DNA of 64,000 bases. Source: Geothrix oryzae (GTDB lineage: Bacteria > Acidobacteriota > Holophagae > Holophagales > Holophagaceae). Location: positions 868,001 through 932,000 of the forward strand of contig NZ_AP027079.1 of assembly GCF_030295385.1 (NCBI RefSeq). The letters are read 5' to 3'. The notes beneath the pieces were generated by a model. It was not told the DNA's origin and searched no databases. It saw only the letters and a list, made by a program, of their open reading frames with translations. The position numbers and the translations under genes were made by a program. Numbering within the stretch: position 1 is the first letter of the stretch; each line of letters begins with the position of its first letter. This document shows positions 35,574-60,181 of this stretch, piece after piece.

Positions 35574-36179
35574 TCAATGGGCTTCGAAGGGTTCAGTCGC
35601 GAAGAGGCGGAAAGTCGCCAACGCGTCCTGCAGGGATTCTCCCCAGGGGTCCGCACCTTCCAAGGCCAGGACCTCGACGCAGCTCCCGTAGTACCAGAGC
35701 TGGTCCGATGGCCCAGCCTTGAAACGATCCCAGGCCTTGGGCCCGAGGAGCCGCAAATCGGCCACTGTGCACTGGAGGTTGTGCAGCTTATCGGAAGCGG
35801 CCACCAGCCGAGTGCTGCGATCTACCTTGCGAAGATGTGCCAGATAGGCCTCCTTCCGTTCCCGCCAAGGGGCCTTCCTGTCGGGATTCTCCGCCAGGCT
35901 GTCGCTGCAGCTTCGGACAATACGCTCTACGCGGTGACCCCACGATTCGCGGATGTGCAGAAGAATGGATTCTCCACCTCCATCTTCGGCCGTGTCATGG
36001 AGCAGCGCGGCGATCGCCTCGTCCTCATCCGCACCAAAGGACAAGGCCATGGAACAGACCGCCATGGGGTGAGAAAGGTAGGGTACGACACCGCCCTTGC
36101 GCACCTGACCATCATGAACGGTCCTCGCGAAGTCGAATGCCGTTGTGAACCGTGTCGTAAGCACTGGACTGGAAGCCAT
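35574..36179 (-). CDS. HD-domain phosphohydrolase, MESH1/SpoT-hydrolase-like
   Basis: A 201-aa protein. The N-terminus has the SpoT/MESH1-type arrangement AFDFARTVHDGQVRKGG, PYLSHPMAV and AALLHDTAED with the metal-binding HD pair; a later DKLHNL completes the site. Such stand-alone HD proteins hydrolyse (p)ppGpp or related nucleotides. GGAG lies before the ATG. It is the first gene inside the left repeat. In a defence island a small alarmone hydrolase could act as an antidote or regulator; that is inference. Confidence 0.72.
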   Translation of the reverse strand: MASSPVLTTRFTTAFDFARTVHDGQVRKGGVVPYLSHPMAVCSMALSFGADEDEAIAALLHDTAEDGGGESILLHIRESWGHRVERIVRSCSDSLAENPDRKAPWRERKEAYLAHLRKVDRSTRLVAASDKLHNLQCTVADLRLLGPKAWDRFKAGPSDQLWYYGSCVEVLALEGADPWGESLQDALATFRLFATEPFEAH

Positions 36180-37494: not shown

Positions 37495-38340
37495 GTGCTC
37501 TCTCCACCTACCCACGATCAACCGTTCAGCAGCCAGCATCCTGGTTGCATGCTTTTCCTGGTCGACCAGTCGACCTCCATGGCCGAACGCGTCACCGCGC
37601 CCAAGACGCCAGATCTCTCCAAGGCGCGGAGTGTGGCGAATCTGTTCAACAAGCTGGTATGGGATCTTATTCTTGCCAACTCGAAGGGAGAGGAGGTCCT
37701 TGATCGCTGCCATGTGGGGGTGATCACCTATGGTCATACCGGGGCTCGAACCGCACCTGGTTTCTCAGGGTTGATGCCGCTCCCAGCCCTGGCCACCTCT
37801 CCCAATCGGGAGGAGATCCAGATCACGCCCCGCTACGACGGCATCGGCGGGTTCGTCGATGTAGAGGTGAGATTACCTGTGTGGCTGGATCCCATGGCCT
37901 ATGGGAAGACGCCCATGTGCAGCGCTTTCCAGATGGCAAAGGCCCTTCTCGATCCATGGGTCCAGACACATCCGGGAAGTTGCCCACCCATCGTATTCAA
38001 TATCTCCGATGGAATCGCCACGGATGGGGATCCGCTGGCGGACATGCAGGCGCTCCAGAACCTCTCGACGGCTACAGGTCCCACGCTGGTGTTCAACATC
38101 CTCCTGGCCGGTGTGGACCGTCCCACAATCGCCTGGCCCACGGATTCCCAGGCAGTGGAAGCAGGGCCACTGCGCGGCATGATCGAGGGGTCCAGTGCAC
38201 TGCCCAATTCCATGAGATTGCGCGCCAATCAGGCCTTCGGGCTCCACCTCCAGGAGGGAGCGCGTGGGGTCGTGATCAACGCCGGGATCCTGGATCTGGT
38301 CCGGCTGCTCGACATCGGAAGCCCCGTCGCCCATGTCTAG
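37495..38340 (+). CDS. von Willebrand factor A domain protein 1 (TerY-like)
   Basis: A 281-aa single vWA domain. The metal site is complete: DQSTSM (DxSxS, about residues 24-29), Thr in GKTPMC, and Asp in NISDGIATDG. It starts with GTG (GAGG four bases before). It is a paralogue of the two vWA proteins downstream, but the most divergent (DQSTSM for DQSGSM). vWA proteins of this type are scaffold or target proteins in kinase/phosphatase triads. The stop overlaps the PP2C gene start. Confidence 0.85.
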   Translation: MLSPPTHDQPFSSQHPGCMLFLVDQSTSMAERVTAPKTPDLSKARSVANLFNKLVWDLILANSKGEEVLDRCHVGVITYGHTGARTAPGFSGLMPLPALATSPNREEIQITPRYDGIGGFVDVEVRLPVWLDPMAYGKTPMCSAFQMAKALLDPWVQTHPGSCPPIVFNISDGIATDGDPLADMQALQNLSTATGPTLVFNILLAGVDRPTIAWPTDSQAVEAGPLRGMIEGSSALPNSMRLRANQAFGLHLQEGARGVVINAGILDLVRLLDIGSPVAHV

Positions 38341-39223
38341 CATGCTCATCCTCCGGGCTCCCAAGTCCGACTACAGCCCCTCGACCTGCGAGGACGCCTG
38401 GGCCTTCCAAGACTCCGGGCAGGTGCGCCTCTCCAGTGGGATCGATGCCACGATGTTCCGCAGGTCCGGAGCTGCTCCATCTACCCTTGCCATTTCGGAT
38501 GGCGCCAGCACCTGCTCCGCCTCCGGAGCCTGGGCCTGCCTTCTCGCCAACCATGTCGTACAGACTGGACAAGACTTGGACTCGGCTGTAGAGCTTCCGG
38601 ATCGATTGAAACCCCTCCGGCAGCAGTGGCGACAGGCCGCGGAGGCGACCCTGAGTGCTCAGGCTTCGTGGAATGCCCGCGCCGCCCTCGAGAAGGGAGC
38701 CCATGCCACCCTCCTTCGGGTTCATCTCGATGGGCCCTGCTGGACGGCCGATGCCGTGGGGGATTCCAACCTCTTCCACATCCGACGGAAAAACCTCTGC
38801 CGGGCCTTCCCGGTCCTGGAGGCTGAAGATTTTGAGGCTGCGCCCTGCCTGGTCGCCAGTGTCGTCGGTTGGGACAATCTCCTGGCGGATGGGCTTCGGC
38901 ATGCCTCCGGAATCCTGGAATCGGGGGATGTCCTGGTCCTGGCCACCGATGCAGCCGCCCGCTGGCTGATGGAGGCCGAAGACTGGGCTTGGCCCGAGCT
39001 ACTGCTGGACATCCCCGATGCCGATCAGCTTTTCCTGGCGTGGGTACGGGAGGAACGTGCTGCCAGGCGCCTCAAGGACGACGACACGACCTTCGTGATT
39101 CTCCAGTGGTCGGGCTCATTGGACAACGACGCTGAGGTCCCTGTGACCCCCGGGCAAACTTGCGCCGACGCGACGAGCGAGCCGTGGCCTCCGAACCTGA
39201 ATACGAACCTGCAAGGAGAGTGA
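38333..39223 (+). CDS. PP2C-like protein phosphatase
   Basis: A 296-aa PP2C-fold protein. Expected metal positions are readable: CEDAWAF near the N-terminus, ISDGAST (DGxS in place of DGhG), AVGDSNLFH, LATDAAARW and the C-terminal DDDTTFVIL. It overlaps the vWA 1 gene by eight bases and is followed three bases later by vWA 2, so it is part of the same operon. Its substrate is likely the kinase or vWA proteins of the operon (inference from the TerY-phosphatase-kinase triads). Confidence 0.78.
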   Translation: MSSMLILRAPKSDYSPSTCEDAWAFQDSGQVRLSSGIDATMFRRSGAAPSTLAISDGASTCSASGAWACLLANHVVQTGQDLDSAVELPDRLKPLRQQWRQAAEATLSAQASWNARAALEKGAHATLLRVHLDGPCWTADAVGDSNLFHIRRKNLCRAFPVLEAEDFEAAPCLVASVVGWDNLLADGLRHASGILESGDVLVLATDAAARWLMEAEDWAWPELLLDIPDADQLFLAWVREERAARRLKDDDTTFVILQWSGSLDNDAEVPVTPGQTCADATSEPWPPNLNTNLQGE

Positions 39224-39226
39224 TCC

Positions 39227-40081
39227 ATGATCGGCGAAACTTCGACCACCCACGGCACCCACACGGCGGCCATCAGCCGCCAGAACCCTGGCTGCATCCT
39301 CTTCCTGCTTGACCAGTCGGGATCCATGGCTGGGTCTCTCTCCCTGCCTGACGGGACCGCCATCACGAAGGAACAAGGCGTGGCGGATGTCGTGAACCGC
39401 TTGCTGGGTGAGCTGGTGCTCTCCTGCACCAAGGGGGAGGAGGTCTACGATCGGTTCCACCTCGGGGTGATCACTTACGGCGAGGGTGTACGAACGGCCT
39501 CTGGTTTCGAGGGGCTTGTCCCGCTCTCCAAGGTGGCGAGCAGTTATGTCCATCTGGACAAGCGGTCGGCCCGGAATCCCGACGGCACCACGACCGATGT
39601 CGCCTTTCCGGTATGGTTTGTCCCAACATCGGGCGGAGGCACCCCCATGTGCGGGGCAATCCATCTCGCAGAAACCCTCCTGGAGCCTTGGATCAGCCAG
39701 CATCCCGACAGCTTCCCTCCCATCGTGTTCAACATCACGGATGGAGCCTCCACCGATGGAAGCCCTCTTCCGGGCCTCCTCGCGCTCCAGGCCATCGGAA
39801 CCGGCGATGGTCCGTGTCTGACCTTCAACTGCCTCTTGGCGGAGGATTCCGGTCCGGCCGTGGTCTGGCCCGCCGAAACCCACCAGGTTCCCAACGGCCA
39901 CCTCCGTGACTTGTTCGAGGGCTCCAGCATCCTGCCGGAATCCATGCGGGCCCGTGCGGCGTCTGTCCACAAACTGGCCTTATCCCCTGGTGCCCGGGGC
40001 GTGGTGCTCAACGCCACCCTGATGGACCTGGTGCGCCTGCTGGATATCGGCAGCACTCCCAATCCGGGTGGTGGCCGGTAG
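39227..40081 (+). CDS. von Willebrand factor A domain protein 2 (TerY-like)
   Basis: A 284-aa vWA protein with DQSGSM (about residues 27-32), GTPMC and NITDGASTDG. It is highly similar to vWA 3 (shared ISRQNPGCILFLLDQSGSM, GVADVVNR, SCTKGEEVYDRF-type blocks, GARGVVLNA end). Ends with LVRLLDIGSTPNPGGGR. AAGGAGAG precedes the ATG. The tandem arrangement indicates local duplication. Confidence 0.85.
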   Translation: MIGETSTTHGTHTAAISRQNPGCILFLLDQSGSMAGSLSLPDGTAITKEQGVADVVNRLLGELVLSCTKGEEVYDRFHLGVITYGEGVRTASGFEGLVPLSKVASSYVHLDKRSARNPDGTTTDVAFPVWFVPTSGGGTPMCGAIHLAETLLEPWISQHPDSFPPIVFNITDGASTDGSPLPGLLALQAIGTGDGPCLTFNCLLAEDSGPAVVWPAETHQVPNGHLRDLFEGSSILPESMRARAASVHKLALSPGARGVVLNATLMDLVRLLDIGSTPNPGGGR

Positions 40082-40169
40082 GTCAACATCCTGCCAATCA
40101 ATAGGGCAAATCGGCCCAACCACCTTCGGCTCCAGCCAGGAGCTTCCTCAATCATCCTCCGGAGTCTCC

Positions 40170-41024
40170 ATGGCCCTCGATGCACCCAGCCTCCGTGCCA
40201 CCCACACCACTCCCATCACCCGACAGAATCCGGGCTGCATCCTGTTTCTGCTCGATCAATCCGGATCCATGGCCGACCCCTTCACCCTCCCAGGGGAGCC
40301 TGAGATCTCCCGTGCGAAGGGAGTCGCAGATGTCGTGAATCGTGTCCTGATGGAACTCGTCCTCGCTTGTACCAAAGGTGAGCTGGTGTATGACCGCTTC
40401 CAAGTGGGTGTGGTTACCTATGGTGGAACTGCGGCCATGGCGCCCTATTTCCAGGGTCTCCGACCTCTTTCGGAGGTGGCGGAGAATCCCCTGGATGTGG
40501 AGCGGCGTCCGATCGTCAACCCGGGCGGGTCGACCAGTGACATCTTTTTTCCCTTCTGGTTCGAACCGCGGGCTGAAGGGGGCACCCCCATGTGTGAGGC
40601 GATCCGCATTGCCCATGGTCTTATCGCACCCTGGGTCGCCCAGTATCCAGAGAGCTTCCCGCCCATCATCTTCAACATCTCGGATGGTGAATCGACGGAT
40701 GGGAGTCCATTGGAGGGCCTGCGTTCGCTGCAGGCTGTGTCCACGCTGGATGGTCCCTGTCTCACCTTCAACTGCCTGCTCGCCAGTGGGTCCGGCCCGC
40801 AGGTGGTCTGGCCCGCCCGAGCTGAACAGGTGCCTGAAGGGAACCTCAGGGATCTGTTCGAGGGATCCAGTGTCCTCCCAGAGGCCATGCGCCACCGGGC
40901 CGCCGCCGCACACAAGCTGAGTCTGGAATCCGGAGCCCGGGGCGTGGTGCTCAATGTCGGGCTGCTGGATCTGGTCCGCCTCCTGGACATCGGAACGCCC
41001 GCCAATGACGGGGGCGCCCGCTAG
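40170..41024 (+). CDS. von Willebrand factor A domain protein 3 (TerY-like)
   Basis: A 284-aa vWA protein with DQSGSM, GTPMCEAI and NISDGESTDG, the same length as vWA 2 and differing mostly by conservative changes. GGAG lies six bases before ATG 40170; the frame is open to 40068 but upstream residues are not conserved between the copies. The 88-base gap to vWA 2 has no recognisable signal. It leads into the kinase gene 27 bases later. Confidence 0.85.
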   Translation: MALDAPSLRATHTTPITRQNPGCILFLLDQSGSMADPFTLPGEPEISRAKGVADVVNRVLMELVLACTKGELVYDRFQVGVVTYGGTAAMAPYFQGLRPLSEVAENPLDVERRPIVNPGGSTSDIFFPFWFEPRAEGGTPMCEAIRIAHGLIAPWVAQYPESFPPIIFNISDGESTDGSPLEGLRSLQAVSTLDGPCLTFNCLLASGSGPQVVWPARAEQVPEGNLRDLFEGSSVLPEAMRHRAAAAHKLSLESGARGVVLNVGLLDLVRLLDIGTPANDGGAR

Positions 41025-41051
41025 CTCCGGCCCCCCGAAACAGGAACCGCC

Positions 41052-42638
41052 ATGCCGATGCCATCCAATGGCGACTATGCCAAGGCTGTTCAGCAGCCCA
41101 AGCTGGTCTTCCAGAGAGCCGATCTCCAGGCGATGCTGCCGGACATGGGGAAGAATGGCACCCCCCTGAGCTGGAGTGGCGCCTTCGCCGTCGTGTTCAG
41201 GATGAACACACCCGCTGGCCGGAAGGTGGCCCTTCGCTGCTTCACACGGGAGGTCCAGCAGGTCCAAGATCGCTACCGGGCCTATGCCCGCTTCCTGGAG
41301 GGGGCCGTGCCTCCCATCCTGAAGCAGAGCCTCCTGGATGTGGAGTATTTGAAGGCCGGCATGCAGGTGGGGGTGACCTCGGTCCCGGTCCTTCTGATGA
41401 CCTGGCAGGAGGGCCAGGATCTTCTCCAGTGGGCCAGGACTGCTGCGAACAACCCCGGCCGGATCGAAGCCTTCCAGGGGCGGTTCCGGGCCTTGGCGCG
41501 GGCCATGCAGCAAGTCGGGTTCATCCATGGGGACCTCCAGCACGGGAACCTGATGGTCTCGCAGAGAGATCTCCCGGTCCTGGTGGACTATGACAATCTG
41601 CTGCTCCCGGGATCGCGTTCCCTCGGCGTCACGACCTTCGGCTTGGAGGGTTTCCAACACCCGGGCGTAGGGTCTGGGACACCTCATCATCTGCTCGACC
41701 GCCTGCCAATCCTGGTCATCGACACCGCCCTCGAGATCCTGAAGGTGAACAGGGCTCTCCTGCCTGGGTGGGAAACCATCGATGGGATGCTGTTCCAGGC
41801 TTCCGATCTGCGCCAGCCCAATGCCAGTGCGCTTTTCCAGGCCATGGAGGGAGAGCGCGCCCTTCAGGGTTGTGCCCGTCAGCTTGCGCTGGTACTGGCT
41901 GGGCCCGTCGACCAGATCCCCACCCTGGATGAATTCCTGAAGCGGGTTTCGGCCCATGCCTATCGGCCGCGCCTGATCTCCTGGAAACGCCCATCAGTGC
42001 GAGGCGCCTCCGCTGCTCCTGTGGCCGTCGCACCGCGGCGCTGGAAGGTGCCGGCCGCACCGTCAGGATTGAGCAGTCTTTCTCCCCGATTGGTCCAGCC
42101 CGGGCTTTCGTGGGCGCAAGCGAGCCTTCGACAGATCGGTCTGGGAGGCGCTCGGACGCCCCTGGTCTGGGCCATGGCATTGGCCCTGATCGTTGAGGTG
42201 GGGATGCACGCTTTTCAGGGGGGGCGCCCCGTCCCGACCGACCGCAGCGCCAAGACCGCCCCAGCCCGACCCGCTCCACTGCGGCTGCGCGAGGTTGGAC
42301 CTTCCAAGACCTACCCACATGCCTCAGGAACAACCCATCTGAGTGCCTTCGAAGTGCTGGAAGTACCCGCTGCCGGTACCTCAGCGGAACTTCCCCAGGG
42401 GGACGCCTACCTCCGTCCCTTCGAAGTGGCGGATCCCCCCAGCGCCCTGGATGAGGGAGCGAATACCCCCCCATCGCCAAGTCGAGGGGAGCTACCCGCC
42501 GAGCCTTCACCCGGAATGGGTCCTTCCAGGCGGCCATTGGGGAATCGGACCTCGCGGCGAGGTTTCAGAGAAGCCATGAGGGAGGCCTGGGAGCGGGGGC
42601 ACGCCCTCCTGACCCATCCCGACCAAAGGTTCAGGTGA
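41052..42638 (+). CDS. Membrane-anchored protein kinase homologue of the vWA/PP2C triad
   Basis: A 528-aa protein. Residues about 25-290 form a kinase-like domain: glycine-loop region SGAFAVVF, VALRCF with Arg in the place of the usual beta-3 Lys, the catalytic loop HGDLQHGN (about 160) and VDYDNLLLPG in the DFG position. A membrane helix (TPLVWAMALALIVEVGMHAF, about 375-395) is followed by a Pro/Ser-rich tail. The VALRCF form is, as I recall, usual in this kinase subgroup, so activity need not be lost. It ends the plus-strand operon. Confidence 0.8.
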   Translation: MPMPSNGDYAKAVQQPKLVFQRADLQAMLPDMGKNGTPLSWSGAFAVVFRMNTPAGRKVALRCFTREVQQVQDRYRAYARFLEGAVPPILKQSLLDVEYLKAGMQVGVTSVPVLLMTWQEGQDLLQWARTAANNPGRIEAFQGRFRALARAMQQVGFIHGDLQHGNLMVSQRDLPVLVDYDNLLLPGSRSLGVTTFGLEGFQHPGVGSGTPHHLLDRLPILVIDTALEILKVNRALLPGWETIDGMLFQASDLRQPNASALFQAMEGERALQGCARQLALVLAGPVDQIPTLDEFLKRVSAHAYRPRLISWKRPSVRGASAAPVAVAPRRWKVPAAPSGLSSLSPRLVQPGLSWAQASLRQIGLGGARTPLVWAMALALIVEVGMHAFQGGRPVPTDRSAKTAPARPAPLRLREVGPSKTYPHASGTTHLSAFEVLEVPAAGTSAELPQGDAYLRPFEVADPPSALDEGANTPPSPSRGELPAEPSPGMGPSRRPLGNRTSRRGFREAMREAWERGHALLTHPDQRFR

Positions 42639-42668
42639 TTGCGGGCGAGGCAGGGAAGGGCCTGGGCA

Positions 42669-43439
42669 TCAACAGGAGGCATTTGTGGCTCCGGTCGGCC
42701 GGACCTTCGGCCTGGCGTTGTCGGGCCGTACCTTCCGGTCAAGGGCTCTGCCTTTGGGGACAAGCCATGCGGCATCGAGCACCAGCACCCAATGAGGCAC
42801 TTTCATAAGCAGGGCCTTCAGGAACCCCAGGTCCAGCGTGCCCCGGCCCGGATCTGAAAGCGGGGCGTCCCAGGTGAGCAGGCGGGTACCCTCGCCACTT
42901 CCGAAGCCCAGGCCCGAGCACCAGAGGATGAAGGGGTGGACCGGATCGTGGTCATCAAGGAGGACCATCAGATGCTCCAGGATGGCAGTTTGGGTCGCCT
43001 GGTGGTCCACCAGGGTATGCACTTTGAATCCGCGTTCTTCAAGGCCAAGCCCGATGTACTGGGCGAGTTGCCTTGCGTTCCGTGGACCGGTGTAGTCGGC
43101 GGCCTGCAGGCTTTCCACCGCACCTTGGAAAAAGGCCGAGCCATAGGAGGCGAGGCCGATGCAGAGGGCCCGGCCGGCCCACAGTACGGGTGACCCGCCT
43201 TGGTGCCGAACCATGGGTGCCAGTGATGGCACCTCCGTGCGGACCACGAGCTGGATCCATTCCCCCACGGTGGCTCCAGCCGGCACGCACTCCAGGGCGA
43301 GCCAGAGGTCCCGTCCCAGCGAGCCCGCCCTCTCGCATCCTTGGTCCCGGATCAGTCGATCCACCGAAGGGGCCACGGTGAAACTCGAGCCCAGGCGGGG
43401 CCTGGGAATGAGCGGTCGGATGGAGGCGGGGTCGCCCAT
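42669..43439 (-). CDS. Caspase-like (C14) fold protein lacking catalytic His and Cys
   Basis: A 256-aa protein. Residues about 85-230 follow the caspase/metacaspase pattern: ALCIGLASYG, LQAADYTGPRNARQLAQYIG, RGFKVHTLVDHQATQTAILEHL split by position, then FILWCSGLG where active enzymes have SGHG, and WVLVLDAAW where they have LDACxSG. Both catalytic residues are thus replaced (Leu, Ala). It converges with the kinase gene and lies 108 bases downstream of the CARF-like gene on the same strand. Fold assignment is by pattern; confidence is moderate. Confidence 0.6.
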   Translation of the reverse strand: MGDPASIRPLIPRPRLGSSFTVAPSVDRLIRDQGCERAGSLGRDLWLALECVPAGATVGEWIQLVVRTEVPSLAPMVRHQGGSPVLWAGRALCIGLASYGSAFFQGAVESLQAADYTGPRNARQLAQYIGLGLEERGFKVHTLVDHQATQTAILEHLMVLLDDHDPVHPFILWCSGLGFGSGEGTRLLTWDAPLSDPGRGTLDLGFLKALLMKVPHWVLVLDAAWLVPKGRALDRKVRPDNARPKVRPTGATNASC

Positions 43440-43547
43440 GGGGAGGAGGCTCCTGGTTCTATTCCAGGGTCGTGCGTATCTCGTTCTGGTCCCGGAAAGA
43501 TAACCTTGCCCGCCCTCTCACGGTAGCCGCCACTGTGCCCGGGAACG

Positions 43548-44690
43548 CTATCGTCGGGAGAGGCCGAACCGGAGGGAGATCAGCCCCTGGGCATAGACAT
43601 CCTCGGCAAAGCCGAAACAGCCGGCCTGGGGCTGGCCCGCCTTGGGCTTTCGGCCCCAGCGGCTTTTGATGGTGAAGCGCTCCAGCGCCGGGTGGAGGTT
43701 CACGATCAGGTCATTGAGCTCATGCTGAATCGGGCCGATGGTCTTGCTCTCGGGTTCCACCCAGGCATCCACGACTCCGAGGAGCTTCTCCTCCTCATCG
43801 ATCCCGATGATTCCGGAGTCGCGCAGCCTCACGATGACCTCCTCCATGGCTGGGGCCATGGAGCTGCGGGGGATCGGTCCTCCGGCCTGGATCCACCCCG
43901 CCAGGAGCAGGCTCTGATGGTCCGATAGAACTGTGCTGGCGTCCCTTGCCTGATCGTCACCCCAGGCCAACTCCAGCCGGCTGGTCTTCAGGTCGAGGCA
44001 GAGGCGCGGGATGGCCGTGGCCTCATCGACGGATCTCTGGAGGCTGGTGATGAAGTCCTCCTCGAGGAGGCGCCTGGTGCCCGCACCCAGGGCGAAGTCC
44101 CGCAGGCGCACGATGGGGATTTCGAAGACGTCCAGCCGGACTTTGCCAACCAGATGGGGATGGGCCGGGTCATCGGGAAAGCCGTAGGCACCACTCTCCA
44201 GCACCTTCCTTGCTTCCTGGGGGAGATCTGGATCCGGTTGGAGCAGCACATGGAACGCCCAATCCTCCGGTCGGGCAAGCAGCGTCATGGCCTGCTGGAG
44301 GGAGCTGGACATAGTCTTGCGCCCACCGCTGATGCAGGCGATCACCGGGCCATCACCCTGCTCCTGGGCTACGCGGATCACTTCCCGGCAGGCCCGGTCC
44401 AGGGCCAGGGCCTGGGCCCGGTTGCGGTTGTCACTGGCCCGGAGGGGCTCATCGGCCCAGACGAGGGTGCCCTCAGCTCCGAGCCATTCGGCCGGTTTGT
44501 CCAACGCCCTGCGCAGCCGGTCCAGGGGGCCTTCAGAGGTGAAGATCTGCGCCACAGCCGTGGTCTTGGAGGCCTCGGTCCCGATGCAGGTCACCCGGTC
44601 CACTTCCAGGCCTTCCACCTGTTCGAGGTACCAGATGGCTTCGGTGAGAACGGCCGGGCTGGTGCCCATGGTTGCCACAAGCCAGGCCAT
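43548..44690 (-). CDS. CARF/ring-nuclease-like protein, Cas_NE0113 type
   Basis: A 380-aa protein. The N-terminal CARF-like Rossmann region has VATMGTSPAVLTEAIWYL (about residues 5-22) and VACISGGRKTMSSSLQQAM (about 117-135, after IACISGGRK), followed by HVLLQPD; these are the ligand-loop patterns of the Cas_NE0113 family of cyclic-oligoadenylate-binding CRISPR ring nucleases/Csm6-related sensors. The C-terminal half is not recognised and has no HEPN RxxxxH that I can place with confidence. No CRISPR array or cas gene is nearby. GAGGAGG precedes the ATG. Confidence 0.72.
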   Translation of the reverse strand: MAWLVATMGTSPAVLTEAIWYLEQVEGLEVDRVTCIGTEASKTTAVAQIFTSEGPLDRLRRALDKPAEWLGAEGTLVWADEPLRASDNRNRAQALALDRACREVIRVAQEQGDGPVIACISGGRKTMSSSLQQAMTLLARPEDWAFHVLLQPDPDLPQEARKVLESGAYGFPDDPAHPHLVGKVRLDVFEIPIVRLRDFALGAGTRRLLEEDFITSLQRSVDEATAIPRLCLDLKTSRLELAWGDDQARDASTVLSDHQSLLLAGWIQAGGPIPRSSMAPAMEEVIVRLRDSGIIGIDEEEKLLGVVDAWVEPESKTIGPIQHELNDLIVNLHPALERFTIKSRWGRKPKAGQPQAGCFGFAEDVYAQGLISLRFGLSRR

Positions 44691-44875
44691 CAGGTGTTCC
44701 TCCTCGTTCCGGGGTGAGCTGTTGGGACCCGTCCCTGGCGCGGCCCATCAGCCTGGGCAGACGGTCAGGGGTGCGGTCCCGGCTGATAGGGTTCAAGCAG
44801 TCAGACTACCCTGAATGGCCCCTGCCAGAGTGGCCTGGGCCTGGTTCAATGTGGCCAGTGGGCTTGGAGCCGAGC

Positions 44876-45670
44876 ATGGGGTGTGATTTCTTCTTCAGCG
44901 GCAACCTTCCTTCCCCTGAGCTGCAGGAGAAGGTGATTCGATTCTGGACCTCGGACCTTCCGGATCCACCGCGTCTGGTGGTTTCACCTTACGCCCTCCC
45001 ACCGGTCACCCCTCTTTTCATTGGGAGCCATGTGAACCGGGACCATGGCCTGTTCCTGGGGGGCCCCCAGGCATTCCAGCTCTTCGGTGTGATTCCATTC
45101 TCAACCGTGGGCGGAAGCCTTGTGGATCAAGGCCAGCTCGTCTTCGACCGGAGCCGCCGGGGCGCCCTGGTGCGAGTCCGCCGTCTTCCGCCAGTGTTTG
45201 GGCTCAAGGCCAATGACCGGGCGACGGATGGAGAGACCCTCCAGGCTTGGCTGAAGTCGGGTCGGGTCCAATGGACGGGCGGGGGGAGCCCCCGAATCGA
45301 TGTGGAGGTCGAAGAGGGCGGGCGCCTGCGGTTGCTCAGCGATCCCATGCCCATGGCCCTGCGGTTGAACATCATGCGGATCCGGTGGTGGCCGGATCTG
45401 GAGCATGGCGACGATGTGGAGATGTGCAGCTATGTGGCTGAGTCCCTCGCCGCCAATCCCGAGTTGGCTTCCAGCCTGCGGGATGAATCCATGGATTTCG
45501 ATGAATGCGAACGGCTGTTCATGTCCGTAAGACCCAAGCATCCGTTTGAGGATCTCGATCTTTCCTCACTCACTGAAGGTACGGAGGGTGAGGAATACCT
45601 GCGGCTGGCCAAGGAAGTGGAAGACCGGATGGCTCAATTCACCATCGACAGTGGGGATGAGGATCTCTAA
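44876..45670 (+). CDS. Hypothetical protein next to the CARF-like gene
   Basis: A 264-aa protein from ATG 44876 (GGAG seven bases upstream; the frame is open to 44672 but that part is not protein-like). It begins MGCDFFFSGNLPSPELQEK, has LFIGSHVNRDHGLFLGG, and an acidic tail rich in Asp/Glu. No signal peptide, no membrane segment, no family recognised. It is divergent from the CARF-like gene with 185 bases between starts, consistent with a shared control region. Confidence 0.6.
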   Translation: MGCDFFFSGNLPSPELQEKVIRFWTSDLPDPPRLVVSPYALPPVTPLFIGSHVNRDHGLFLGGPQAFQLFGVIPFSTVGGSLVDQGQLVFDRSRRGALVRVRRLPPVFGLKANDRATDGETLQAWLKSGRVQWTGGGSPRIDVEVEEGGRLRLLSDPMPMALRLNIMRIRWWPDLEHGDDVEMCSYVAESLAANPELASSLRDESMDFDECERLFMSVRPKHPFEDLDLSSLTEGTEGEEYLRLAKEVEDRMAQFTIDSGDEDL

Positions 45671-45674
45671 CAGG

Positions 45675-46034
45675 ATGGGGCACACCATCGAAGAATACTT
45701 TGACCAAGTTGAGCACCTCACAGCCAGTTACCAGCCAGAACCATGGTGGATATGGGATACAAGGGCCACGGTTTGGATTCAGGACGCAGCCAGGCCTCAT
45801 CGGCGTCACCGGAAGCTCAGCAAGATTCTCAAATGGGACCTACAGCGCAAATCCGCCATCGAGCCGGGACTGGGACACATGAAAGCGGGCGGGCTCCACA
45901 GAGGGAACTTCCTCAAGGACATGGTCGGGGACCTTCACGACATCATCCTTTGCGGCGCCTTACGCAACCTGAGGAAGATCCAGGCCGTCTCATGGGTCCA
46001 GTTGCCCCCTCTCAAAGTTAGGCAAGGAAAATAG
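45675..46034 (+). pseudogene. IS5-family transposase remnant, frameshifted
   Basis: Frame 1 gives GHTIEEYFDQVEHLTASY, matching the GHTLxETLEQVxxLTG block of IS5-group transposases. The expected VDxGYKGHG follows only after a frame change (from 45743), and the end returns to LQRKSAIEPGLGHMKAGG and NFLKDMVGDLHDIILCGALRNLRK, the usual RRxAIEPxIGHxK...NFL..GD..N...A..NLRK end. It is a 3' fragment with at least two shifts. The rest of the IS is absent. Confidence 0.7.
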
Positions 46035-46076
46035 GAAGATAGTCAGAGAGTTAATCGACTTCCTTAGATCCCGACC

Positions 46077-47375
46077 CTATTTCCGAGCGCTTCTTATACT
46101 TACATGATCAGGATGGGGGTGTGTTTTAGGGCCGAATAAATAGCCCTTTTTCCAATTTGTTATAAAATCTTCAATTCTAATTGCTTTCTTGTCTAAATCT
46201 GCGATTTCTCGATTCTTGCCAGGATGGCACGCAGAGTTTCCATCCTTCCTGATCTCATCGAACCACTTCCAATCTGACTTACTTATGATACTAAACTCAA
46301 GTAAATCATTAATTTGTGATTTGAGTTTCTCTGAAGAAAATGCTGGTTTAATGATAAAAATATCACAAATTAATTCCAATAAGATTCTTAGATTTCGAGC
46401 GCAATCTTCTATATGCTGTCTTTTTAGATGCCAGTTGATCTCATCAATGTAATTTTTGATATCGTTCTGTTGCTGTTTTGTGATGGATTCCCAACTAGGT
46501 ATTTGAATAGAAGGCTTGGAGTTTGTCATCCTACCGGGAAGTCCAGTCCCTCGGATATCCGGGTTCCTCTTGATTTGTGCTTCTGCAAGTGGGGGCACTG
46601 CTCGCTGAGTATTATTTGCATTGGATTGCGAGCTTGAACTTTTGGCCACACCCTGAACAAAATCCACCTTGATTGGTGGTCCAGTCGGGGGGAGCTCCAG
46701 GGTCTTCTTGGAATTGCTTGAGGGAAGTGATGACGGATGGCCAGAATGCTGAGACGGTGGTGGCACCACGGATGCTGAATCCACATTTCCAGACCCCTCG
46801 GTGATTGCCACGGATTGGACTGGCTTTTCTTGCTTGAGTTGGCGGGGCGACTGGTTTGTCTGGAAGGCCTGGGGGACATGATGTGGTTCTGTGAGGCTGG
46901 ATTCTAGAATGGACTCATTTGTTTCTCGGGGCCCGCGATTGAACTTTGCCAGCAAATCGGCCAGCGAAACCCCACTGGGCTGCTTTGAATTTGATGACTT
47001 GGGGGCCGTTCCCGGTCCTACCCCACTCGACGGAGGCATGACAGTCTTGCTAGGCATGGTTCCACTTTCGATTGGCTGGGATCCTGCTGTTGCATCCTTC
47101 GGCAGAAGCTCTGTAATTTCCTTGGGGTGTGCCCCCGCGCCTATTACCTGCCCTGCACGTATAAGTTTGACATGACCAATGGAAAGGTGAATATCAACCG
47201 GCGGGAGTCTCTTATATTCCTCCGGTCTGATTCGTCTTCGAACCGAATCGCATTGGTCATCCGTCAAATTGGAACTATGGCTTTTGCCCGGAAGCCCAAG
47301 GCACTTTTCGATGCATTCGAGCACAACATGGTTGCTCACACGGAGTTCATACGCCAACTGATTAACCCGTAACAT
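46077..47375 (-). CDS. IF2_N-like / DUF4145-like two-domain protein
   Basis: A 432-aa protein in a stretch clearly lower in GC than the rest. Residues 1-50 (MLRVNQLAYELRVSNHVVLECIEKCLG, then GKSHSSNLTDDQ) match the IF-2 N-terminal helical domain (RVxELAKELGVSSKELI...KSHxSSLxD). A Ser/Pro/Gln-rich linker of about 220 residues follows. Residues about 310-410 (LKRQHIEDCARNLRILLELICD, FDEIRKDGNSACHPGKN) resemble the HEPN-related DUF4145. Function unknown; the composition indicates recent transfer. Confidence 0.6.
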   Translation of the reverse strand: MLRVNQLAYELRVSNHVVLECIEKCLGLPGKSHSSNLTDDQCDSVRRRIRPEEYKRLPPVDIHLSIGHVKLIRAGQVIGAGAHPKEITELLPKDATAGSQPIESGTMPSKTVMPPSSGVGPGTAPKSSNSKQPSGVSLADLLAKFNRGPRETNESILESSLTEPHHVPQAFQTNQSPRQLKQEKPVQSVAITEGSGNVDSASVVPPPSQHSGHPSSLPSSNSKKTLELPPTGPPIKVDFVQGVAKSSSSQSNANNTQRAVPPLAEAQIKRNPDIRGTGLPGRMTNSKPSIQIPSWESITKQQQNDIKNYIDEINWHLKRQHIEDCARNLRILLELICDIFIIKPAFSSEKLKSQINDLLEFSIISKSDWKWFDEIRKDGNSACHPGKNREIADLDKKAIRIEDFITNWKKGYLFGPKTHPHPDHVSIRSARK

Positions 47376-55220: not shown

Positions 55221-56198
55221 CTACGGCCTGAGGCGATCTGCCCTCTCGCAGACCAGCCGCTCCAGCACGGCATCGTCGAGCCCCTGCCCCAGAAGCCCTG
55301 CCGCAGCCCTGTTGGCAGCGCCCGGGAGCTTGTCGCGGAGGAGGTCCAGGCGCTTGGTGAGGAAGGTCCTGTTGAGCCCGATGGCCTTGGCGCCGGATTC
55401 CAGGGCCTGCCGGTCCATGTCCGCGAAGCGGAATCGCCCATCGATGGACATGGCCATCCCCATGGACAGCCCCGGGTAGTAGACCGTGGAGAGCAGGTCG
55501 TACAGCGGGGCAAGGCGGATCCCCTTCGGTGTGAAGAGGAAGGAGAAGTTCTTCGCATGGGCATCGCCGTTGCCAACGATGAGGTTGAACATGACAGCGT
55601 CTATGAAGTCGCGTGCATCGGCGCCCGGCTTCTCGCTGTGGTCGAGAAGCAGCCTCCGGCACCGGGCCAGGCCGGGCCCCAGGTGGTTCTCGTACTTGTA
55701 GGCCGAGGTGAGGCCCAGAGCCTGGCAGAAGTCTTCCTGGTGGAGGCGGACCACCCTGCCGTGTTGGTGATCACGGTCGTATCTCTCTACAAGCAGAAAG
55801 GTCTGGAGGCCTCGCTCGGCGAACAGCCGTCGGGCCTCCACCTTGGCGACTGGAAGACCCATCTCGGCCGCCAGACGCATCACGAAGGCCTCGTTTGCCG
55901 TGGTTCCCGGGTAGCTGGGGATGGCGGGTTTCAGGATGTGGGTCGTGGGCTCGCCGGGGGCCGGGAGGCTCGCCTGTCGCTGAATGACGCTGAGGACAAC
56001 CCCGGGCGCGACCCCTGCCTTCTTGGCCACCTGCGTGAGCGGGATCCGGGTTCCCTTGAACAAAGCCCGGATGGTCTGGGCGTTCAGGCCGGGCAGGGAC
56101 CTAGCGGTTAGGGCAGAGGATGCCATCCCTCCGTTTTTGGTCGATCGGATGCTGTGGTTCGAAACCATGTGAACTCCTTGGTAGGCGCTCGGCGCCAT
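55221..56198 (-). CDS. HipA-like kinase with atypical N-terminus
   Basis: A 325-aa protein. The HipA catalytic part is clear: THILKPAIPSYPGTTANEAFVMRLA, the active-site region VMFNLIVGNGDAHAKNFSFL and LAPLYDLLST. Full HipA is about 430 aa; here the N-terminal beta domain is missing and in place of the glycine/Ser autophosphorylation loop region there is an HTH-like stretch (TIRALFKGTRIPLTQVAKKAG, VAPGVVLSVIQ). ATG 56198 or an internal ATG at 56126 could be the start. HipA phosphorylates a tRNA synthetase in E. coli; whether this form is active is open. Confidence 0.7.
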   Translation of the reverse strand: MAPSAYQGVHMVSNHSIRSTKNGGMASSALTARSLPGLNAQTIRALFKGTRIPLTQVAKKAGVAPGVVLSVIQRQASLPAPGEPTTHILKPAIPSYPGTTANEAFVMRLAAEMGLPVAKVEARRLFAERGLQTFLLVERYDRDHQHGRVVRLHQEDFCQALGLTSAYKYENHLGPGLARCRRLLLDHSEKPGADARDFIDAVMFNLIVGNGDAHAKNFSFLFTPKGIRLAPLYDLLSTVYYPGLSMGMAMSIDGRFRFADMDRQALESGAKAIGLNRTFLTKRLDLLRDKLPGAANRAAAGLLGQGLDDAVLERLVCERADRLRP

Positions 56199-56402: not shown

Positions 56403-57869
56403 TTAACGTGTCGAGCGCACAAGGCGATGACCAACGAGATGGCACCCTGTCTCATTAAGAACACGTTGCCATCCAGCTTGGGTGCCTATCGCTGATGGAT
56501 CGGCATAAAGCCCCCACTTTTCCTCTTGGGCTGTCAGTCGGTGATAGGTTTCCCAACGACTCGCACTTGTGGGAATGAACGTCTCTTTTCGATGGAGTAT
56601 GAAGCGATTCGTATGGTCTTTATAGTTCCTCCGTCGAATTTTTCGACCATCCAGCGAGACCACTACCGAGTCCAACAGCTCAGGGTGGGGATTCCGATCG
56701 AAATCCTCGTACGTTAAGTAGGACACTTGGGCTCCGTCCCGATGGAACTTGATCAGGTTCGCCCCTGAAACACCACCCACGAACGCTCTGGCGCAACCCT
56801 CATACAACCGAAGTACCGGTGGGAGTTCGTCGAGGTGATCGATGTGCACATACAGTCCCTTTGGCATCAGTTTTCCAAACGGGGATTTAGAAATGGCCTC
56901 TTCTCGCACCTCTATCTTTCCAATGCTCATGAGAAGGTTGTCAGCCTCTTCGCAGGCCCGCGTGTAAGCACTAAATAGCGCCTTGATGTCACGTTGGAGG
57001 AAGATTGGTAGGGTGGTGAATTGTGGCCGCATGTGAAACCTGGTGAGCGCTAGCCACACAAGCAGATCCAACCTGCGATCGGTCTGAATGTCGGCCCAAG
57101 GCTCATGACCCGTAACTGAGCGGATGACCTGGAAGGCCTTGGGGAATGACCCGAAGTGAGCCCTGAGGTCATCAATTAGGGGGAATTCATCCTCCTGAGG
57201 GAGCCTTCCCCGCTCCGTGAAAAATGCCATGACCGATTCGAGTAGAACTTTGTGTTCTTGGAACAAACGAAGTCGAGTAGAAACCCTTGGGAGAGCTAGT
57301 TTTCTCCTGAATCTTTGGGCTCTCCAGGTTTCTCGGACGGACTCGTCCCGGAAGACCAAAAATATCCCTGGAGCCATTGGGAGCGGATCCTGACCAAGAA
57401 CCTCCTGAATCCATTGTCGAAGCTCGGATTGTTCGTAGAACTTCTGGAAGCTACCGAGCCTGGTTACGTATCCATCTCCGAATGTGCCTGCACCTTCTTC
57501 GGGGCCGTCCTCAAGTGTGCATCGTGCAGAAACGATGAGCACCCGCTCGGTCAGTTGCCAGCATTCACGAATGACATCCGCACGCTCTTCTGGTGACTCA
57601 ATAACATTCAGTACATAGCCAAGATTTACGACATGAGATGGTGTCCGTTGCCCATGGGGGCGATGAACCGGGTCCCATCCCTCCACGTGCACCCCGATCT
57701 CACCTAACTGGCGTATGTCCTCGCCATGCCCACACCCAAAGTCCAACACGCGGACCTCAGGGGTGATGAGCCCATCCTGAACCGCCAGCCTGACGGGCTT
57801 ACTCATGGATTTCCGATGCAAGGCCGTCTTATGACGGGCCGATTCCCATCGAGAAGTGTCCGCGCTCAC
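56403..57869 (-). CDS. DNA phosphorothioation-associated putative methyltransferase
   Basis: A 488-aa protein of the type annotated with dnd loci (TIGR04096). It opens with ESARHKTALHRKSMSKPVRLAVQDG and has the SAM motif VRVLDFGCGHGED (about residues 38-50) then NLGYVLNVIES. The C-terminal two-thirds is a specific domain (GLYVHIDHLDELPPVLRLYEG). The start is GTG 57869, overlapping the dndA stop as GTGA; this keeps the conserved RHKTAL block, which the first ATG (57806) would lose. Its role in phosphorothioation is not established. Confidence 0.85.
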   Translation of the reverse strand: MSADTSRWESARHKTALHRKSMSKPVRLAVQDGLITPEVRVLDFGCGHGEDIRQLGEIGVHVEGWDPVHRPHGQRTPSHVVNLGYVLNVIESPEERADVIRECWQLTERVLIVSARCTLEDGPEEGAGTFGDGYVTRLGSFQKFYEQSELRQWIQEVLGQDPLPMAPGIFLVFRDESVRETWRAQRFRRKLALPRVSTRLRLFQEHKVLLESVMAFFTERGRLPQEDEFPLIDDLRAHFGSFPKAFQVIRSVTGHEPWADIQTDRRLDLLVWLALTRFHMRPQFTTLPIFLQRDIKALFSAYTRACEEADNLLMSIGKIEVREEAISKSPFGKLMPKGLYVHIDHLDELPPVLRLYEGCARAFVGGVSGANLIKFHRDGAQVSYLTYEDFDRNPHPELLDSVVVSLDGRKIRRRNYKDHTNRFILHRKETFIPTSASRWETYHRLTAQEEKWGLYADPSAIGTQAGWQRVLNETGCHLVGHRLVRSTR

Positions 57870-58996
57870 CGAAGCCCTAATAGAGCAGCTAGGACCGGGG
57901 TCCAATCCACAGGCTCAGTCAAATGGCACCAAGAGATGCGGAGGGCCTCTCGAATGCGGTCATCACCAAGTCCCATGCTCTTCAGGACGTGACTTGGTGT
58001 GTAGGACTGAGAGGTGCAGGCCGAGCCATTAGAAATGGCCACTAGTCCCTTCAACGCCACCATAGCTGCCTCCGAGCTCACGCCAGGGATGGACACGTTG
58101 AGCGTAGAAGGAACAAGCCGATCAGGATCCCCATTGATGGACGGATTCATCGGCTCCAAGGCTTTCAGCAGACCTTGGCGAAAGCTGAGGCAGGCTTGCC
58201 GACGAGGCTCGAATTCAGAAATGGCGATGGCAGCGGCCTCTCCAAGCCCTGCAACCAAATGGACAGGAACTGTGCCTGGCCTAAGCCCACGCTCCTGCCC
58301 ACCACCAAACATCAGGGGGCGGAGTGGAAGGCTCTTGAATCCGCGCCTCCGCGTGATCAAGGCCCCCACGCCCTTTGGTCCGAATATTTTATGACCGGAA
58401 ATGGAGATCAGCTCGATTCTCGGGTCCCTAAGGTTCTGGATTTCCTTGCCGAAGGATTGGGCGGCATCAACATGGAAGTAGGCCGCGTGGCCGTCGAGAA
58501 TTCTCGCCACTTGATCGATAGGCTGAATGACCCCTGTTTCGTTGTTCACGTGCATGAGCGAGACCAGAAGGGTGTCAGGTCGAAGAGCCTTCTGCACCTC
58601 CGCCGGATCAACCCATCCGCCCGCGGTCGGGTTGATCAGAGTGATGTCGAACCCTCGGCTGGCCAGCTCCTCTAGCGGCTCAAGCACGGCCTTGTGCTCC
58701 ATAGAACTGCTGATGATGTGCTTCCTGCCGTTTTCGGTTCCGTAATGAGCCAACCCGAGCAATGCCAGATTGTTGCTCTCCGTGGCGCCGCTGGTGAAGA
58801 TCACCTCCTCAGTCTTGCAACGCACCACGCTAGCTACCTGCTCACGGGCTTTTTGCACCACCTGCTTGGCTCGATTTCCAAACTCATGGGTGCGACTCCC
58901 CGCATTCCCGAAGTCTTCGACCAGGTAATTCCAAACCACCTCCTGAACTCGGGGCTCTAGCGGTGTAGTAGCGTTACAATCGAGGTACGTCGTCAT
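57866..58996 (-). CDS. dndA: Cysteine desulfurase DndA
   Basis: A 376-aa NifS/IscS-like PLP enzyme that supplies sulphur for DNA phosphorothioation. MTTYLDCNATTPLEPRV start, FTSGATESNNLALLG, MHVNNETGVIQP, the PLP Lys in ISGHKIFGPKG (about residue 202) and the catalytic Cys in NGSACTSQ (about 326). ATG 58996 follows AGGAG; the frame is open to 59116 through the dndB promoter. It diverges from dndBCDE, the classical dnd layout, and is followed by the methyltransferase gene. Confidence 0.93.
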   Translation of the reverse strand: MTTYLDCNATTPLEPRVQEVVWNYLVEDFGNAGSRTHEFGNRAKQVVQKAREQVASVVRCKTEEVIFTSGATESNNLALLGLAHYGTENGRKHIISSSMEHKAVLEPLEELASRGFDITLINPTAGGWVDPAEVQKALRPDTLLVSLMHVNNETGVIQPIDQVARILDGHAAYFHVDAAQSFGKEIQNLRDPRIELISISGHKIFGPKGVGALITRRRGFKSLPLRPLMFGGGQERGLRPGTVPVHLVAGLGEAAAIAISEFEPRRQACLSFRQGLLKALEPMNPSINGDPDRLVPSTLNVSIPGVSSEAAMVALKGLVAISNGSACTSQSYTPSHVLKSMGLGDDRIREALRISWCHLTEPVDWTPVLAALLGLR

Positions 58997-59011
58997 GCAG
59001 AGATCTCCTGA

Positions 59012-59052
59012 TTGACATTTTGACTCCGTACGTATCATATATGACGTAACGG
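59012..59052 (+). promoter_or_regulatory. dndB promoter with DndB-type palindromic operator
   Basis: TTGACA (59012-59017), 17 bases, then TCATAT (59035-59040) as a sigma-70-like promoter for dndB. A palindrome CCGTACG...CGTAACGG (59026-59052) with TACG at 59029 and CGTA at 59045 spans the spacer and -10. The published Salmonella DndB site is, as I recall, TACG-N10-CGTA; here the gap is 12. DndB would thus block dndBCDE and perhaps dndA. Confidence 0.6.
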
Positions 59053-59062
59053 AGCAATTGCC

Positions 59063-60181
59063 ATGGAATCTACTTTCACGTACGCCTTTCCCGCCATACG
59101 AGGAATCCAGGCACAAAGGGAATACTTTGTGTCGATGTGTCCCATGCGGATCCTTTCCCGGATCTTTGTATTCAACGAGGAAGAGGATATCCCCCCTGAA
59201 CTTCGAGCCCAGCGAGTTCTGAACCGAGGGCGTCTGCCCGAGATGGTGAGATACCTCCTGGACAACCCCACATCCTACGTATTTTCAGCCATCAGCGCTT
59301 CCATCGATGGCCCGGTTCGATTCGAGCCGTTGACTGAGAAGGGTGAAGGGCGGCGTATGGGCACACTCCACGTGCCGATGGATGCTCGATTCATCATCAA
59401 TGATGGCCAGCACCGGCGAGCCGCTATCGAGCAGGCCATCAAAGAACATCCTGACCTGGGGGATGAAACCATAGCCGTGGTCTTCTTCATGGACCGAGGC
59501 ATGTCCCGAAGCCAGCAGATGTTCGCAGATCTCAACCGTCATGCAGTTCGGGCCAGCAGCAGCATTGGCGTGCTCTATGACCAACGGGACCAGTCTGCGG
59601 ATATTGTGAGGCGTATGGTACTCAAGGCTCCAGTTTTTAAGGGGCTGATTGAGATGGAGCGTGCCACCCTGGCCCTGCGATCTCGGAAGCTCTTCACTCT
59701 GAGCTCTGTTTACCGTGCTACGAACAGCCTTCTCAGGGATCTTCCAGGGGCAGTTGAGGATCACCTTGCACTTGCAACCGCCTTTTGGATGGAAGTCGGT
59801 TCGCAATTCCCGGAGTGGGACGAAGTCCGTGAAGGGTCCCTCGCAGCTCAGGATGTAAGGACGGAATTCCTTCACAGCCATGGAGTCGTTCTTCAGGCCA
59901 TTGGGCGGGCCGGCAACGCGTTGCTCCACCAGGACTCCCGAACATGGAAGAGCAGGCTCAAGGCGCTCAGGAAGCTCGACTGGTCCCGGAAGAACCCCTA
60001 CTGGGAGGGACGGGTCATGATCGGCGGTCGTGTTTCGAAGGCAGAAGCGAATGTCATCCTCACGGTTTCGGCCATAAAGGGTGCTATCGGGCTCCCTCTC
60101 TCTGCGGAAGAAAAGCGCTTAGAGGACAACATCGCATCGTCTAGGACATCTTCTGCAAGGCAGGGAAAACATGGCCGGTAA
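59063..60181 (+). CDS. dndB: DNA phosphorothioation repressor/ATPase DndB
   Basis: A 372-aa DGQHR-family protein: TLHVPMDARFIINDGQHRRAAIEQA carries the family motif at about residue 114, with DLNRHAVRASSS following. DndB is a transcriptional repressor of the dnd operon that also lowers modification frequency; it is dispensable for the chemistry. GGAG lies eight bases before the ATG. The stop overlaps dndC by 11 bases. Confidence 0.93.
   Translation: MESTFTYAFPAIRGIQAQREYFVSMCPMRILSRIFVFNEEEDIPPELRAQRVLNRGRLPEMVRYLLDNPTSYVFSAISASIDGPVRFEPLTEKGEGRRMGTLHVPMDARFIINDGQHRRAAIEQAIKEHPDLGDETIAVVFFMDRGMSRSQQMFADLNRHAVRASSSIGVLYDQRDQSADIVRRMVLKAPVFKGLIEMERATLALRSRKLFTLSSVYRATNSLLRDLPGAVEDHLALATAFWMEVGSQFPEWDEVREGSLAAQDVRTEFLHSHGVVLQAIGRAGNALLHQDSRTWKSRLKALRKLDWSRKNPYWEGRVMIGGRVSKAEANVILTVSAIKGAIGLPLSAEEKRLEDNIASSRTSSARQGKHGR

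Follow-up and report, generated by a model that had tools for sequence, protein, structure and literature searches.

A putative free-standing caspase p20 protein with both catalytic residues replaced, encoded beside a CARF gene in Geothrix oryzae

A 64,000-nucleotide stretch of Geothrix oryzae DNA (contig NZ_AP027079.1, positions 868,001 to 932,000 of the forward strand; here called the window) contains an open reading frame in which caspase-like motifs lack the residues expected at the catalytic positions. The locus raises the question of whether the product, referred to below as the pseudo-caspase, carries a caspase (C14) domain and, if so, what a caspase without its catalytic dyad might do among the genes that surround it. 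The features under discussion are collected in Table 1.

Table 1. Features of the pseudo-caspase locus; positions are those of the window
Feature	Position	Strand	Description	Basis
Pseudo-caspase gene	42669..43439	-	256 aa; ATG start; AGGAG ~10 nt upstream	ORF, codon scores, start context
N-terminal ~89 residues of pseudo-caspase	43173..43439	-	No known relative	pLDDT mostly <50 in guided model
Caspase p20-like region	42771..43172	-	Residues ~90-223	Profile alignment; guided AF2 core; structural match residues ~78-231
Leu 177 (CTG)	42909..42911	-	At catalytic His position (SGLG for GHG)	Profile alignment, codon reading
Ala 224 (GCA)	42768..42770	-	At catalytic Cys position (LDAA for LDAC)	Profile alignment, codon reading
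CARF-domain protein	43548..44690	-	380 aa; Cas_NE0113 / Csm6-type CARF	Pfam PF09623, PADLOC, TIGR02584, GGRKT
TerY-P kinase	41052..42638	+	STK_OB-like N-terminal 300 aa; convergent with pseudo-caspase	PADLOC STK_OB 6.8e-49
TerY-P module remainder	37495..41024	+	TerY-like VWA 37495-38340, PP2C 38333-39223, VWA 39227-40081, VWA 40068-41024	

Coding frame and relation to caspases

The stretches quoted in the initial annotation (RALCIGLASYG, AADYTGPRNARQLAQYI, GFKVHTLVD, CSGLGFGSGEG, and LVLDAAW) are all present in the 256-residue frame. Under both codon models, this frame outscored the other five as coding sequence, and its codon score was similar to those of the adjoining island genes. No stop interrupts it, compared with three to six stops in each of the other five frames. 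The codon signal of the N terminus and of the tail was weaker than that of the p20 part. Codon windows placed the score of the first ~89 codons below that of the p20 part; the start of the gene is therefore uncertain, and the true start could sit further down, for example, at Met 76. The GC content by codon position in this N-terminal part (0.73, 0.57, and 0.78) is still coding-like.

No match to the pseudo-caspase was found in Pfam, NCBIfam, PADLOC, or PHROGs. The Pfam C14 model PF00656 did not report it, and a phmmer search against the PDB gave nothing meaningful. Since the library profiles were silent, profiles were built from other proteins. The main C14 profile consisted of 25 diverse sequences from acidobacterial genomes, with the pseudo-caspase itself left out. 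It scored the pseudo-caspase at 18.9 bits (E of 5.2e-8 for one sequence), against 3.0 bits for the best of 3,000 shuffles, and hhalign with the same profile aligned residues 90 to 223 with a probability of 95% and a P value of 3.4e-8. In the profile alignment, SGLG lies opposite xGHG and LDA lies opposite LDAC/LDS. When the 25-sequence profile was run on 10,341 real ORFs, drawn from 100 other loci as well as the window, the pseudo-caspase ranked first with an E value of 6.8e-4, and the runner-up scored 8.4 bits (E of 0.82). With a 28-sequence C14 set, the score was 9.9 bits, above all 3,000 shuffles (next, 4.8), and the hhalign probability was 83%. SGLG fell on GHG in both HMMER alignments, and LDA fell on the LDAC end with the broad profile. 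A narrow profile built from ten viral-contig caspases also placed the pseudo-caspase first of 3,001 but weakly, at 5.5 bits and an hhalign probability of 2.5%. From these sequence comparisons, the pseudo-caspase is assigned the p20 half of a caspase (C14). The description in the initial annotation of a caspase-like protein with both catalytic residues replaced (SGLG and LDAA) is thereby upheld.

Structure prediction, which had been proposed in the initial annotation as a check, gave a divided result. Folding of the single sequence produced no usable model (pLDDT 36), while a caspase p20 fold was obtained in an AF2 model for which ten caspases were supplied as alignment rows, so that the result was guided by its input. 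The guided model had a mean pLDDT of 59, with values per 10 residues of mostly 73 to 91 in residues 121 to 220 but 46 to 51 in residues 101 to 120, and its core strands and helices were confident. It matched the yeast metacaspase Yca1 over 125 residues with a VIA-align Z of 13.4 and an rmsd of 3.9, from an alignment that contained the ten caspases. The best Foldseek match was MALT1 (1.9e-5), and other caspases were also matched, over about residues 78 to 231. The fold of the guided model was taken as supportive only.

The stop codon falls 32 residues past the Cys position, so no p10 lies behind the p20 part. A metacaspase p10 is absent on both sides, the C-terminal side being closed by the early stop and the N terminus being not p10-like in the comparisons that follow. 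A circularly permuted caspase, in which the p10 precedes the p20 (the order of type III metacaspases), was considered, with the N-terminal 88 residues as the p10. These residues do look p10-like by eye, and hhalign chose the same register, but with a P value of 0.94. The order has a counterpart in an acidobacterial protein of 652 residues (genome G269; L219:4085-6040, minus strand), in which an intact C14 domain is followed by a p10 and then by a dead p20 with SFTGLG and a terminal LLDAS. The permuted arrangement was rejected on an HMMER E value of 0.21 for one sequence, on fractions of 0.61 and 0.68 in two profile-alignment shuffle tests, and on a p10 profile score of 12, compared with 55 to 124 for ten real p10s. 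The low pLDDT of the N terminus in the guided model (Table 1) also stands against it, and we regard a permuted caspase as hardly credible. A different objection is that the pseudo-caspase might be some other alpha/beta protein, not a caspase homolog, with motifs that resemble C14 by chance. The silence of the library profiles and the low values from the narrow caspase profile are consistent with this, but the E value and hhalign probability of the broad profile, the two motifs in register, and the top rank among real ORFs make chance resemblance very unlikely.

Catalytic positions and other altered caspases

The His-Cys dyad of active orthocaspases and metacaspases is absent from the pseudo-caspase, which has Leu 177 and Ala 224 instead, in motifs that start at residues 175 (SGLG) and 221 (LDAA). 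The Leu codon differs from CAC and CAT at two bases, and the Ala codon differs from TGC and TGT at all three. Because these differences involve several bases and the frame is still open, they suggest that the loss of the dyad may be old and no single recent change. Among 64 C14 domain matches from the examined loci, which were picked by strong C14 score and are hence biased to active ones, the dyad positions held His in 58 and Cys in 55; the exceptions were one Leu, one Gln, six Ser, and several gaps.

Dead or altered caspases of other kinds were met in addition to the G269 protein. In genome G105, a Sel1-repeat protein (L224:2692-4350, plus strand) has a C14 domain in which the Cys is replaced (LAEAAYA) and the His is kept, and its gene directly follows a caspase gene that seems to be active. 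Six same-genus genomes (L041, L042, L043, L044, L045, and L046) encode a C14 protein similar to the genus metacaspase in which the motif reads LDTSHSG, with Cys changed to Ser and with His kept, and a C14 protein at L047 has Gln for His. L041 to L047 form a natural series of single-residue losses. Two caspase-like proteins from viral contigs (L216 and L217) keep the Cys, and their GHG stretch is deleted or replaced.

No ortholog of the pseudo-caspase was found in any of the genome sets searched. Only its own copy was found among 150 relatives. In 396 genomes of the phylum, searched at an E value of 0.01, its own copy was accompanied by four matches at E values of 0.003 to 0.008, three of them with an internal stop, which is about the chance expectation over 396 genomes. 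Peptide patterns gave 95 matches in 84,980 species genomes and 14 in viral contigs, none of which was confirmed as an ortholog of the pseudo-caspase, and no ortholog was found on plasmids. The alternative named in the initial annotation, an ortholog with intact His and Cys beside the same genes, was thus not encountered in the genomes searched.

CARF neighbor and surrounding island

The gene upstream of the pseudo-caspase is on the same strand, across a gap of 108 nt, and encodes a CARF protein. This protein matched Pfam PF09623 (Cas_NE0113) at 3.8e-15, PADLOC CARF5--CARF at 1.8e-21, and TIGR02584 at 3.1e-16, the last being below the cut-off of that model, and the GGRKT motif of the CARF core was intact in the alignment. 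No R-x4-6-H motif was present after the CARF part; the sole match, at residue 140, lies inside it. Searches of the genome for type III CRISPR genes gave no RAMP (PF03787) and no Cas1. The single Cas10-palm match was below the cut-off, and the GGEE-type motif of the matched protein makes it look like a diguanylate cyclase. A ligand-making enzyme for the CARF protein was not found among these RAMP, Cas1, and Cas10-palm searches.

The pairing of the two genes was seen once, in one genome. No caspase was found beside CARF homologs at any of 94 loci, which comprised 14 of the 22 non-own matches of one search and the best 80 of the 442 loci of another. A type III cas gene was detected at at least 50 of the 94 loci with ten phmmer probes, a weak test that gives a lower bound. 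There were 27 CARF loci of at least 10 kb without a type III cas match, and the neighbors at 24 of them, one of which gave no CARF ORF, contained no comparable pair. Across positions 41000-46100, a promoter scan detected no sigma-70-like sites and a single terminator-like site, a lower count than in shuffled sequence, and it carries no information on operon structure.

On the other side of the pseudo-caspase lies the convergent TerY-P module. PADLOC matched its VWA genes to TerY (1e-49, 9.8e-55, and 4.3e-57) and its phosphatase gene to PP2C (1.2e-26). The STK_OB match of the kinase is limited to the first 300 residues (562-position profile), and a hydrophobic stretch at about residues 370 to 386, which resembles a membrane helix, is found in place of the OB-fold. 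No caspase was found beside TerY-P at the 6 loci taken from 28 non-own kinase matches, five of the six having strong kinase matches. No MoxR ATPase or VMAP-type component was seen among the proteins scanned with Pfam and PADLOC, which were a subset of the ORFs.

Several other genes of the window were also noted. Genes of the DndA, DndB, DndC, and DndD types (phosphorothioation) occupy its right end at 57866-63859, and a protein with a HipA-like C-terminal domain is encoded at 55221-56198 (Pfam HipA_C, 2.2e-47). A divergently placed ORF of 332 residues at 44672-45670 belongs to no family of Pfam, NCBIfam, PADLOC, or PHROGs, and a low-GC protein of 432 residues at 46077-47375 has an IF2_N-like start, just below the Pfam cut-off, and a C-terminal DUF4145. 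An HD_4 domain protein (35574-36179; Pfam, 4.3e-18), possibly a small HD hydrolase, lies at the island's left edge. Since the sampled same-genus genomes have neither the pseudo-caspase nor the CARF gene, and since the kinase matches in three same-genus genomes were only weak (E of about 6e-4), the island was probably acquired.

Interpretation and comparison with known systems

The missing p10 half and the CARF gene upstream on the same strand go beyond the initial annotation. Selection for a nonproteolytic role of the pseudo-caspase is plausible. We tentatively favor, with slightly less than even confidence, the interpretation that it is a free-standing p20 with a dead dyad and a probable nonproteolytic binding partner or output of the CARF sensor in a defense island. 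The CARF and pseudo-caspase genes would be co-transcribed, and the CARF protein would bind a cyclic nucleotide or a related ligand. The dead p20 would bind a partner or peptide via its retained sheet and substrate groove, with no cutting, and may thereby act as a scaffold, decoy, or regulatory output of the sensor. A two-gene signaling module outside CRISPR, in which the output of the CARF sensor is a dead, p10-less caspase fold acting by binding and the ligand comes from a non-Cas cyclase or from an invading phage, is an unlikely further reading. The orphan-CARF pairing is the only part of the locus that could prove surprising, and it rests on one genome.

The main rival to a binding partner of the CARF sensor is a truncated remnant: an effector that was once a caspase, is now without p10 and dyad, and is drifting in the defense island with no present function. 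The missing p10, the stop soon past the Cys position, the failure to find orthologs, and the lower codon signal of the N terminus and tail are what point to a remnant. The first of these is tempered by the reported absence of p10 from the majority of bacterial p20 proteins (PMC6426788). The stop-free frame, the island-like codon use, and the codon differences of more than one base at each dyad position, which together with the open frame would imply long retention, argue for a gene that has been kept, and we consider a remnant a serious if doubtful possibility. The pseudo-caspase could also be a dominant-negative regulator of the metacaspase at C1:543921-544721, binding either the metacaspase or its substrates. 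The Pfam C14 model matches this metacaspase and no other gene of the genome, both Cys and His are kept in it, and in other acidobacteria (G269 and G105) dead domains occur beside or within active caspase proteins. The two genes are about 370 kb apart, however, and C14 genes also occur in genomes of the genus from which the pseudo-caspase is absent, which renders such regulation highly improbable.

Bacteria are already known to contain dead caspases, which have received little study as a component of immunity and whose function is mostly unknown. A free-standing dead caspase and a CARF sensor that is not accounted for by any CRISPR genes detected in the genome make a small testable pair. Should the CARF protein prove to bind a cyclic nucleotide and then the dead caspase, this would demonstrate signaling by a caspase fold without cutting.

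Three known systems resemble parts of this locus. The vWA-MoxR ternary conflict systems (Kaur et al., 2020; PMC7159879) have in common with it a dead caspase domain in a conflict context and vWA genes nearby; section 12 of that paper gives about 70% of the caspase domains in effector position as inactive and reads them as dominant-negative or peptide-binding. Unlike in those systems, no MoxR or VMAP was seen here among the scanned proteins, the vWA genes are those of the convergent TerY-P operon, and the dead caspase stands on its own rather than being fused to vWA as described there. The CARF/SAVED effectors of type III CRISPR and their caspase-like partners, as presented in PMC9704534 and PMC12669027, share with this locus a CARF sensor adjoining a caspase-family protein, whereas here no type III effector genes or Cas1 were detected, and the caspase part is dead and encoded by a separate gene. 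TerY-P modules in which the kinase carries a fused OB-fold (Gao et al., 2020, as cited in PMC11090510) likewise combine VWA, PP2C, and an STK_OB-type kinase, and modules of this type are reported there as stand-alone phage defense. The module here is a convergent neighbor of the pseudo-caspase, and a shared system is not implied. In the literature, no paper was found that brings together TerY-P, caspase, vWA, and PP2C, and none that treats inactive, caspase-like proteins of bacteria under the name pseudocaspase. The papers listed for orthocaspases together with CARF and CRISPR did not contain the word "orthocaspase," and the pairing is not claimed as unpublished.

The closest known counterparts are the pseudo-orthocaspases (Klemencic et al., 2019; PMC6426788), which are likewise prokaryotic C14 p20 proteins with no p10 and a replaced dyad, and which keep the fold, as is predicted here. 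Bacterial pseudo-orthocaspases without the dyad are described as widespread in that paper, and according to an earlier survey cited in it, 16% of prokaryotic p20 sequences have a substituted dyad. By the definition given there, namely, a p20 present, a p10 absent, and the dyad substituted, the pseudo-caspase has all three attributes, its p20 homology being taken here from other profiles; the p20 cut-off score of 35.2 in that paper refers to the authors' own HMM. The dyads named in the cited portions of that paper are YS, YN, YA, FS, QC, and HA, compared with Leu-Ala here. The pseudo-orthocaspases in those portions are from a phototroph, and the present protein is from an acidobacterium, in a defense island and beside a CARF gene. 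Judged by its predicted domain content, the pseudo-caspase fits the pseudo-orthocaspases, a known kind of protein, with an unusual dyad and an unusual neighbor.
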